Of a stretch of 20,828 bases of DNA, positions 3,802-7,063 are shown piece by piece. The position numbers were made by a program, and so were the translations under genes. Numbering within the stretch: the first letter of the stretch is position 1; every line of letters begins with the position of its first letter. Below the pieces are notes generated by a model. It worked only from the letters and a program-made list of their open reading frames with translations. It was not told the DNA's origin and searched no databases. The DNA comes from a virus: the IMG/VR virus record IMGVR_UViG_3300007734_000450, positions 1 to 20,828 of that record; one strand, given 5' to 3'.

Positions 3802-4885
3802 TCATCCAGACTGCGAAGGCTTTGCAGTAGTTAAAGATGATAACAATGAAGTTTTAGGCTGTCACAAAACACAGGCTCAAGCTGAGGAACAATTAACAGC
3901 CATAAATATTGCAGAGTTTGGTACCAGAGAGTTACCACAAAATTACAGACCGGCATCCAGTGAAGATGTGCCAGAGGGTCGCAATTGTGCAAACTGTTAT
4001 TTTTATGAAGAAGGCTACTGTGACCTGTGGGATGCTAATGTAAAAGCAAACTATTATTGCAACAGATGGGCTGCACAAAATGAAGATAGAGCAGATGCCC
4101 CGGCTCCAGAAAAAGATCAAATTGAGGGTAGTGATGAAAACAAACCCGGTAGTGCAGCTGGTAAGTCCGGTGACATATCAATAAACGCAGCCACCGAAAA
4201 AGCATTACAAACAAAAGCAGATGAACACAATGAGGCTATGTCAAAAGCTAATAAGCCAAACTGGACAAGGGTCAGAGTGGGTGCGCTTAAGTCTGTATAT
4301 CGCAGAGGGTCAGGCGCATACTCAACATCACACAGGCCGGGAATTAGCCGCGCCGCTTGGTCAATGGCCAGAGTAAATGCTTTCTTAGTATTAGTTAGGA
4401 CAGGCAGACCTACAAACCCAAAGTATGTTGGTGACAATGATTTGTTGCACTCAGATCATCCAAGATATTCAAAACAAAAAGATGAGTCAAGAGCTGTAAG
4501 TTTTACACCAACAGCTGCTATGAGGACAGAGGCACAAAGAGGACTTGATTGGCGTAGAGAGTTTGGCAGAGGCGGTACAGAGATAGGGATTGCCAGAGCT
4601 AGGGATATTGCCGGTGGCAAAGACTTGCCTTTAGAAACAGTCAATCGCATGGTGTCTTTTTTTGCAAGACATGAAGTAGATAAACAAGCTGAGGGTTTTA
4701 GTCCTGGAGAAAAAGGCTATCCATCAAACGGCAGAATTGCGTGGGCTTTATGGGGCGGTGATGCCGGTAAGTCATGGGCAGAAAACATAGCAAACCAAGA
4801 CAGAGATTACCATGAAGATGAGGATGATAAACCAAGATACAACACAGCTATACAAATATTACAAAACTTAAAAAAACAGATATAA
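3779..4885 (+). CDS. Multidomain Cys-containing head protein, function unknown
   Basis: A 368-residue protein of unknown function lies between prohead protease and major capsid protein. Four blocks can be seen: an N-terminal module with HPDCEGFAVVKDD at 9-21 and GCHKTQAQAEEQL at 27-39; a Cys cluster C70-x2-C73-x7-C81-x12-C94, which resembles an iron-sulfur (HiPIP-like) or zinc ligand set; a basic block around VGALKSVYRRG (167-177) and GISRAAWSMARVNAFL (188-203); and a C-terminal block with GGTEIGIARARD (265-276), VSFFARHEVD (292-301) and WALWGGDAGKSWA (322-334). Similar C-terminal blocks occur in head-gene regions of environmental phages as I recall them. A head assembly or packaged-protein role is inferred from position only. 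The long overlap with the protease supports co-translation, so it might act with the protease. Confidence 0.8.
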   Translation: MPYSVVSDHPDCEGFAVVKDDNNEVLGCHKTQAQAEEQLTAINIAEFGTRELPQNYRPASSEDVPEGRNCANCYFYEEGYCDLWDANVKANYYCNRWAAQNEDRADAPAPEKDQIEGSDENKPGSAAGKSGDISINAATEKALQTKADEHNEAMSKANKPNWTRVRVGALKSVYRRGSGAYSTSHRPGISRAAWSMARVNAFLVLVRTGRPTNPKYVGDNDLLHSDHPRYSKQKDESRAVSFTPTAAMRTEAQRGLDWRREFGRGGTEIGIARARDIAGGKDLPLETVNRMVSFFARHEVDKQAEGFSPGEKGYPSNGRIAWALWGGDAGKSWAENIANQDRDYHEDEDDKPRYNTAIQILQNLKKQI

Positions 4886-4886
4886 T
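4858..4886 (+). promoter_or_regulatory. Candidate promoter for major capsid gene
   Basis: A perfect TATAAT at 4881-4886 lies 17 bases after ATTACA at 4858-4863, which matches the -35 consensus at four of six bases. The -10 box overlaps the stop codon of the preceding gene. It would give a leader of about 70 bases before the capsid ATG. The region is AT-rich, so chance matches are possible. Confidence 0.5.
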
Positions 4887-4963: not shown

Positions 4964-6322
4964 ATGTCAAATACATTTCTAGCCTCTCTGCGTGAGAAGC
5001 GTGAAACAAAGACTGCTCTTATTTCATCAACAGTAGAGCGTGCAGCGGATGAGACGCGCGATCTATCAGAGGTTGAACTTGCCAATGTAGAGGCACTAAA
5101 CCTTGAAGTAAAAAAGTTAGATGAAAGAATTGAGCAGATGTCAGATATTGAACTGCGCAACCAAAAAGCCGCTGATCTAGCAGCTAAGGTTGATGCCAAT
5201 GTAGATACAAAGAAAGAAACACGCGCTGGTGGTTTCACTGTAACAAAAGAGGAACTAACTTACTCAGAGCGCACCGCGGATAAATTCTTAGGTGATGCAC
5301 TAAAAGCGCAATTTGCAAATGACTATGAAGCATCCGAGCGTATCCAACGCCATCAAAAAGAAATGGCAATTGAAAAGCGTGCATCAGATTCAGGCAATTT
5401 TGCCGGCCTTGTAGTACCTCAATATCTAGTTGATTTGTATGCACCTCTAGCACGCGCCGGTAGGCCGTTTGCAGATGCAGCACGCAAACATCCACTACCT
5501 GCACAGGGTATGTCAGTAGTTATCAGCCGTATCACAACCGGTACAGCTGTTGCATATCAAACATCTGAAAACACTGCCGCAGTTAGCACAGATCCAGATG
5601 ACACAACACTCACAGTAAATGTGAACACAATCGCTGGACAAAACAGCATTTCAAAGCAAGCATTACTACGCGGATACAACATTGAAAACATTGTATTAGC
5701 AGACTTGCTACGCGCTTATCACACAAAACTTGATGATGCGCTACTAAATGGATCAGGAGCTAATGGACAACCATTAGGCCTAAAGACCATGACAACAGGA
5801 ATCTTGGTAACTTACACAGCGACCACAGGTACAGTTGCCGGCCTTTATCCAAAAATTGCAGATTCAATCCAACAGATTCAATCAACAATTTATGCTAATC
5901 CAAATGCAATCATCATGCACCCACGCCGCTTAGGATTCCTATTGGCTGGAGTAGATGGTTCAAACCGCCCACTTGTAGTACCAAACGCCTACAATCCAAC
6001 TAACGCAATTGGTACAGGTAACGGCACACCACCTTACGGCAACAGCGGCTACTCAATACTTGGCTTGCCAATTATTACAGATGCCAACATTGCAACAAAT
6101 GTCGGTGCTAGCACAAATCAAGACACAATCTTTGTGGTTGATCTTAATGAGTGTCACCTTTGGGAAGAGGCTGGATCTCCTACCTATGTAAAGTTTGAAG
6201 AGCCAAATGGCAAGGTTGCAATCAACATTGTTATGTTTGGCATGTCAGCATTTACAAGCTTGAGATACCCAGGCGCAATTGCTCAAATCAACGGAACCGG
6301 ATTAGCGGCACCAAGCTTCTAA
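4964..6322 (+). CDS. Major capsid protein, HK97 fold
   Basis: This 452-residue protein builds the icosahedral shell. Residues 1-80 are charged and helical (coiled-coil scaffold or delta domain), a linker follows, and the mature part probably begins somewhere near 135-150, before SGNFAGLVVPQYLVDLYAPL. HK97-fold signs include LLRGYNIENIVLADLL, a DDALLNGSGANGQPLGL loop, and IMHPRRLGFLL. The C-terminal segment with VAINIVMFGMSAF is typical of actinophage capsids. A strong AGGAGA site lies eight bases before ATG. The gene has its own candidate promoter upstream and a hairpin downstream, as expected for the most abundant structural product. The integral scaffold explains the lack of a separate scaffold gene. 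Confidence 0.96.
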   Translation: MSNTFLASLREKRETKTALISSTVERAADETRDLSEVELANVEALNLEVKKLDERIEQMSDIELRNQKAADLAAKVDANVDTKKETRAGGFTVTKEELTYSERTADKFLGDALKAQFANDYEASERIQRHQKEMAIEKRASDSGNFAGLVVPQYLVDLYAPLARAGRPFADAARKHPLPAQGMSVVISRITTGTAVAYQTSENTAAVSTDPDDTTLTVNVNTIAGQNSISKQALLRGYNIENIVLADLLRAYHTKLDDALLNGSGANGQPLGLKTMTTGILVTYTATTGTVAGLYPKIADSIQQIQSTIYANPNAIIMHPRRLGFLLAGVDGSNRPLVVPNAYNPTNAIGTGNGTPPYGNSGYSILGLPIITDANIATNVGASTNQDTIFVVDLNECHLWEEAGSPTYVKFEEPNGKVAINIVMFGMSAFTSLRYPGAIAQINGTGLAAPSF

Positions 6323-6332
6323 TCTAAAAATT

Positions 6333-6364
6333 TCTAAGCCCCTTACCCTTCCAAGGGGCTTAGA
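6333..6364 (+). terminator. Hairpin terminator after capsid gene
   Basis: A perfect 12-base-pair stem pairs 6333-6344 with 6353-6364 around an 8-base loop; the core is CTAAGCCCC/GGGGCTTAG. No T tract follows on the + strand (it reads ATCCTAAC). An A-rich stretch lies before it, so it is T-rich on the - strand. It probably reduces rather than abolishes read-through into the connector genes. Confidence 0.75.
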
Positions 6365-6370
6365 TCCTAA

Positions 6371-6443
6371 CTATGGTTGGTATTTAAGAATTGGAGTTTG
6401 CTTAATGTCCCAGAGCAATACAGATTTTGGATACCAACCATGG
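6371..6443 (+). promoter_or_regulatory. Long hairpin hiding the adaptor start codon
   Basis: ATGGTTGGTAT at 6373-6383 is the exact reverse complement of ATACCAACCAT at 6431-6441. With G-U pairs the stem extends to 6371-6389 against 6425-6443 (19 pairs) around a 35-base loop. The AUG at 6440 of the next gene is inside the 3' arm, so translation initiation there should be blocked unless the stem is opened. Confidence 0.7.
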
Positions 6444-6449
6444 CTATAA
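6405..6449 (+). CDS. Possible 14-residue leader peptide
   Basis: An ATG at 6405 preceded by GGAG at 6393-6396 opens a 14-codon frame, MSQSNTDFGYQPWL, that ends with TAA at 6447-6449. It starts in the loop of the hairpin at 6371-6443 and crosses the whole 3' arm, overlapping the adaptor start at 6440 in another frame. Translating it would unfold the stem and bring ribosomes to the adaptor AUG. The ORF is short and could be accidental, but the good binding site and its geometry are suggestive. Confidence 0.4.
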   Translation: MSQSNTDFGYQPWL

Positions 6450-7063
6450 CAAATGGCTACGCAACACTAGTAGCTATCAAAGCCTACTTGTCCATCTCAG
6501 ACTCAACAGATGACACTTTACTTGAAACATTAGTAGAGTCATCTTCACGCTCAATTGATAAAATTGCCAACCGCAGATTTTATGCTGACACTTCGGCTAC
6601 AACACGCACTTACAGAGCTTACTCAGATGTTTTTGTTTATACAGATGACATTAGTTCTACAACCGGTCTTATAGTAAAAACAGATGAAGACGGAAATGGT
6701 ACCTACTCAAAAACACTGACTTTGAACACAGATTTTATTATGGATCCGCTTACAGCCTCAGCTTTAGGCAGACCCTTTACACAATTGACTATGGTTTCTA
6801 ATACTGAGTCTTGGCCTATTTTTCCCGGATTAACACAAAACGGCTTACGCCCCGGTGTGCAAGTAACGGCTAAGTTTGGCTGGCCATCTGTACCTAGTGA
6901 TGTCAATGTAGCTTGTCTAATACTTACAGCTGATTTATACAAGCGCAAAGATGCACCGGGCGGTGTCCTAGGTCTTGGTGATCTAGGAGTAATACGCATG
7001 TCCCCAGTAGGCAGAGATGTATCACAAATGATTAGGGCTTATCAAAAGATTGCTATTGCCTAA
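6440..7063 (+). CDS. Head-tail connector/adaptor (HK97 gp6-like)
   Basis: This 207-residue protein fits the adaptor family that binds below the portal and joins head to tail. The N-terminal NGYATLVAIKAYLSI and the Ser-rich helix SSSRSIDKIANRRF match the helical start of gp6-like adaptors, and the C-terminal half has VTAKFGWPSVPSDV followed by a helix carrying LILTADLYKRKD, also typical. The frame is open upstream to a TTG at 6377. I choose ATG at 6440 because MAITNGYATL is the usual family start, and the extra 21 residues are coded by the hairpin. No strong ribosome binding site is seen at 6440, which fits translation coupled to the small ORF overlapping it. The stop shares a base with the next ATG (TAATG). 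Confidence 0.85.
   Translation: MAITNGYATLVAIKAYLSISDSTDDTLLETLVESSSRSIDKIANRRFYADTSATTRTYRAYSDVFVYTDDISSTTGLIVKTDEDGNGTYSKTLTLNTDFIMDPLTASALGRPFTQLTMVSNTESWPIFPGLTQNGLRPGVQVTAKFGWPSVPSDVNVACLILTADLYKRKDAPGGVLGLGDLGVIRMSPVGRDVSQMIRAYQKIAIA

Follow-up and report, generated by a model that had tools for sequence, protein, structure and literature searches.

In the RNA phage MS2, the replicase start site is opened by translation of the upstream coat gene; that system involves long-range pairing with a full-length upstream gene, unlike the 14-codon leader in a local loop that is described here, while the tap-repA region combines a blocking stem-loop with a stop-start overlap. For tap-repA of the IncFII plasmid R1, coupling of leader translation to that of repA is mentioned in PMC12779154, which cites Blomberg et al. 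1992. The synTCE elements use a hairpin to block a second ribosome-binding site (RBS) and its leaky initiation until a ribosome arriving from upstream unwinds it, together with a stop/start overlap (PMC11602170). In phage T4, mRNA hairpins cover the Shine-Dalgarno (SD) sequence and/or the AUG of genes e, soc, 49 and I-TevI, and for gene e the block is relieved by late promoters that lie inside the 5′ arm and omit it from the transcript (PMC3014915).

Here we analyze a leader-hairpin module in front of the head-tail adaptor gene of a phage, in a window that is a virus record of 20,828 bases (GC 41%) with terminase, portal, protease, capsid, adaptor, tail terminator and tail genes. As in tap-repA, translation of a short leader ORF would be coupled to that of a downstream gene, but the target is a phage structural gene and no CopA-like antisense RNA was found. 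Replicon control of the tap-repA kind, with a homologous repA and antisense CopA, was rejected, as the downstream gene is a head-tail adaptor and no Rfam family reaches its gathering score in the window. The module shares a hairpin-blocked second RBS, a proposed unwinding by the ribosome and a stop/start overlap with synTCE and bicistronic designs; synTCE, however, is engineered, with a URAUG overlap and an upstream switch, whereas this module is natural, has a AUGGCUAUAA overlap and carries the leader RBS inside the hairpin loop. A start-sequestering hairpin is common to this locus and T4 e, soc, 49 and I-TevI, but no leader ORF is described for the T4 genes. The split-SD structure of T4 genes 25 and 38 does not fit, as the GGAG lies inside the loop.

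The buried adaptor start and its hairpin

Two predicted hairpins separate the capsid stop (6322) from the adaptor AUG (6440), and the elements of the region are as follows.

4964-6322, + strand: major capsid gene (HK97-type), upstream of the adaptor (Pfam PF05065, E=4.9e-19; PHROG major head protein)
6333-6364, + strand: hairpin 1, 12-bp stem, after the capsid gene (fold; stem covaries, loop fixed)
6345-6352, + strand: invariant 8-nt loop of hairpin 1, ACCCTTCC (every clade locus with enough upstream sequence)
6371-6389, + strand: 5′ arm of the start-codon hairpin, hairpin 2 (fold, covariation, tree)
6393-6396, + strand: leader SD, GGAG, in the hairpin 2 loop, 8 nt before the leader AUG (GGA invariant in 48/48, GGAG in 47/48 distinct sequences)
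6405-6449, + strand: leader ORF, 14 codons plus stop (MSQSNTDFGYQPWL), frame -1 to the adaptor (conserved layout)
6425-6443, + strand: 3′ arm of hairpin 2, including adaptor SD and AUG (fold, covariation, accessibility)
6429-6431, + strand: presumed adaptor SD, GGA, weak and buried in the stem (TTTGGA invariant in 34 distinct 14-codon leaders)
6440-7063, + strand: head-tail adaptor gene, 207 aa (phrog_442 head-tail adaptor, E=1e-12; phrog_40 Ad1)

The adaptor is identified by its profile matches and by its place between capsid and tail terminator, and tblastn matches it to Rhodococcus and Pontimonas phage adaptors. A good sigma-70-like promoter match (4858-4886, ATTACA-17-TATAAT, 10 of 12) lies 77 nt upstream of the capsid gene.

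Hairpin 2 has a 19-bp stem, including G·U pairs, around a 35-nt loop (6390-6424), and within it lies an exact 11-base inverted repeat (6373-6383/6431-6441). These elements, with the GGAG, the leader AUG at 6405, its 14 codons and stop, and the adaptor AUG, all lie where a first-pass annotation of the locus had placed them. That annotation had also described the adaptor AUG as locked in the hairpin, which folding bears out: the fold of 6366-6450 has a free energy of -31.8 kcal/mol (z = -6.2, with 0/200 shuffles equally stable), the fold of 6320-6480 that it had proposed gives z = -8.3, and the SD-AUG region of the adaptor is the least accessible of the window's 22 gene starts (0.00 versus 0.17-0.79).

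A scan of viral contigs returned 80 clade loci, to which scans with divergent members added more, and de-duplication left 81 distinct clade adaptor genes and 48 distinct hairpins, counts that are not independent since the sequences are closely related (adaptors 76-97% identical). All members are metagenomic, from uncultured freshwater phages, and a phage collection search gave no DNA-level similarity and no isolate of the clade. The module of hairpin and leader is kept in 79 of the 81 genes, and each of 13/13 clade records holds a single copy. The adaptor AUG is sequestered by the stem in 48/48 distinct modules, with an unpaired probability of 0.005 (maximum 0.04), and the stem end falls exactly over it in every member; in 116 more distant, hairpinless relatives the corresponding value is 0.43-0.47. 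From this difference, a closed start in the clade against one about 45% open in the relatives, it follows that a single clade gained the module or retained it. At the site of the presumed adaptor SD, one member (L035) has AGAGG.

Across the 48 distinct sequences, standard pairs occupy 94.9% of 910 pair cells, a share that falls to 41-45% when the partner is slid by one base; both sides have changed at 8 stem pairs, and 0/500 shuffles reach the observed pairing. Parsimony on a tree of adaptor codons 11-207 gives about 13 changes at pair 6378/6436, involving both arms every time, a count that whole-module exchange between phages could inflate. The arm variants include GGTTGG/CCAACC, GGTCGG/CCGACC, GGCCAG/CTGGCC, GATTGG/CCAATC and GATCGG/CCGATC, with TAGTTGG/CCAACTA in one phage. 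Because hairpin 2 is conserved with compensatory change throughout these sequences, it is far beyond chance. The kept pairs include several G·U, and the sense-strand fold is stabler than that of the complement in 48/48 (-29.9 versus -18.1 kcal/mol), so that sense RNA is what selection sees; the same two properties disfavor a DNA-level operator or recombination site. A covariance model run against 94 distant or module-less loci found no match outside the window, and the module is absent from phiPsal1 and from an Acidimicrobiia MAG. The same 5′/3′ arm motif was also sought before other viral genes, and at least 85 non-clade matches turned up; at least 39 of these stand at the head of an ORF longer than 60 aa, and the matches resemble chance hits within coding sequence.

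The leader frame and the adaptor codons beneath its stop

The layout of a short ORF that spans the structure and stops close to the downstream start is conserved, as read here from sequence. The leader stop (UAA, 6447-6449) lies ten bases into the adaptor gene; 79 of the 81 distinct genes keep the leader, and the overlapping stop is present in 78. The first-pass annotation had predicted that adaptor translation should depend on the leader, and had taken relatives devoid of conserved pairing or of a leader ORF as the case against itself; relatives within the clade instead show both, with covarying pairing, in agreement with such dependence. The start is ATG except in L035, which has GTG and has lost one codon of the ORF through an in-frame 3-nt deletion, while single-base indels occur only upstream of the leader start, between stem and start, and never within the leader. 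In L029 the overlapping stop is lost and the leader extends to 39 codons.

What the clade conserves is thus the start, frame, length and overlapping stop of the leader, while its residues drift. Differences among the 34 distinct 14-codon leaders are mostly amino-acid-changing (N/S 1.46), and the peptide is therefore not under purifying selection. This ratio bears on an attenuator in which the nascent leader peptide would stall the ribosome on a signal and so set the state of the hairpin. Translational attenuators of the erm type likewise place a short ORF beside a start-sequestering hairpin, and FGY-Q/R-x-WL is common near the end of the leaders; the residues, however, are unconstrained in frame, including the 3′-arm codons, which track the pairing (Q/R/W, P/S/L), and the conserved leader end owes its constancy to pairing and to the overlapping adaptor codons. 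A conserved peptide sequence was not found, and we regard an arrest peptide as very improbable.

The overlap also constrains the adaptor, as the leader stop requires ATA at adaptor codon 3 and a codon 4 that starts with A or G. All 79/79 carry ATA at codon 3, compared with an ATA share of 29% among other Ile codons and 22/116 at codon 3 of the hairpinless relatives. An A or G opens codon 4 in every gene but one, which keeps the leader stop as TAA or TAG: ACN has given way to GTN several times, with TAA becoming TAG, and only L029 lost the stop. This pattern, the conservation of leader start, frame and stop, and the position of the stem end over the AUG are not predicted if the stem acts in RNA processing or stability, as a nuclease target or as a barrier between capsid and tail mRNAs, with the leader incidental to it. 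Two consecutive stable hairpins between a gene for a many-copy product and one for a few-copy product would suit such an element, which we nonetheless consider highly unlikely.

Probable translational coupling and a possible role of hairpin 1

We think it probable, with good confidence, that the module is a cis-acting, sequence-independent device for translational coupling of leader and adaptor. On an mRNA that continues from the capsid gene into that of the adaptor, the stem would lock up the adaptor SD and AUG and block direct initiation, while the loop would offer a good leader RBS and room for an initiating ribosome without opening of the stem. By about leader codon 7, the footprint of the ribosome would displace the 3′ arm and free the adaptor SD and AUG, and at the leader stop over the adaptor start the terminating ribosome would reinitiate, or a new 30S subunit would load; both models are current (PMC7538156). 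This sequence of events agrees with folds in which a ribosome-sized stretch was masked: with the mask at the initiating position (6390-6418, leader codon 1) the stem is still 0.96 formed, but it disappears once codon 7 or a later one occupies the P site. The distance between the 15-bp arms is 37-44 nt, and 43 in 38/48. Because the loop size fits the footprint and the peptide evolves freely, coupling would be independent of sequence, the leader peptide itself being irrelevant to it.

We infer that coupling operates in vivo, by reinitiation or fresh loading, and that it brings a benefit, which may be a fixed ratio, shielding from direct initiation, or regulation. The first-pass annotation had seen its purpose in keeping the adaptor scarce, a possible but unsupported reading: coupling allows a high or a low yield, and the leader SD is a good one. 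A programmed frameshift that fuses leader and adaptor was rejected, as the stop is conserved, no slippery heptamer was seen, and the module-less members L027 and L031 start at the same MAITNGY.

Adaptor scarcity had further been ascribed to a terminator just upstream, a part of the earlier reading that needs correction. Hairpin 1 has no U-tract on the + strand, a consensus terminator scan matches the - strand only, and an intrinsic terminator with a GC-rich stem and a coding-strand U-tract is therefore unsupported. Its stem varies almost freely with compensation, while the loop (also given as ACCCUUCC) is invariant even in loci that have lost hairpin 2; the 6 clade loci without the loop are truncated contigs. 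An invariant loop and the absence of a U-tract imply another or additional role, and from its pattern of variation hairpin 1 looks like a candidate binding site rather than a plain terminator. No GGAAGGG with which the loop could pair was found elsewhere in the window. In an active assembly switch, which we judge improbable, leader translation might be controlled by a phage protein or RNA, perhaps by way of this loop, so as to time or limit synthesis of the head-completion ring relative to capsid.

Relatives and the setting of the module

Two clade members, L027 and L031, lack leader and hairpin 2, by parsimony through two losses within the clade, and the module is therefore not essential. L027 (near 2835) retains the 5′ arm, now joined to the adaptor AUG, with TATGAT directly before the gene, and has ATT at adaptor codon 3, where the constraint imposed by the leader stop has been lost; L031 (near 3001) has an AAAGGA Shine-Dalgarno sequence in place of the module, and ATA at that codon. 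In more distant relatives the adaptor start follows closely on an upstream gene, a putative promoter hexamer, or a small basic-tailed gene. In L191-L250, hexamers like TAGAAT or TAGACT are frequent 6-7 nt ahead of the adaptor AUG, which suggests, from motif and spacing, leaderless transcripts from a dedicated promoter. In L270 and L271-L318, capsid and adaptor are separated by a 54-59-codon gene (MIRV...KRKRKK) whose start lies within the post-capsid hairpin and whose end, in most cases, falls 2-3 nt short of the adaptor AUG; this gene may correspond to the leader.

These hexamers, and the TATGAT of L027, are in line with a timing switch like that of T4 gene e, in which read-through transcripts carrying the hairpin are silent and a promoter in the 5′ arm (TATGAT/TATGGT) yields unfoldable, freely translated ones. 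T4 provides the precedent (PMC3014915), and TATGAT or TATGGT stands at 6372-6377 in 41/48 distinct sequences. In the other 7/48, however, the hexamer is broken (TATGGC, CATGGT, CATGAT, CGTAGT) and the pairing kept; a scan of the window found no consensus promoter at the 5′ arm, and such a switch leaves the conserved leader start, frame and overlapping stop unexplained. This logic is a live rival or addition to coupling, though an unlikely one.

Translational coupling of leader and adaptor would place a known mechanism at a new site. The first-pass annotation had called the arrangement unfamiliar at phage connector genes, and among open-access papers we found no description of leader-hairpin coupling at a tailed-phage connector gene; the mechanism itself is known from tap-repA, so that the novelty lies in where the arrangement is found, not in its kind. 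The module is a natural counterpart, tested by evolution, of the leader-hairpin coupling built by synthetic biologists, and it sits where tailed phages switch from a protein required in hundreds of copies to one required in about a dozen. The module thereby offers a testable case, in freshwater phages, for the setting of structural-protein ratios inside one operon.
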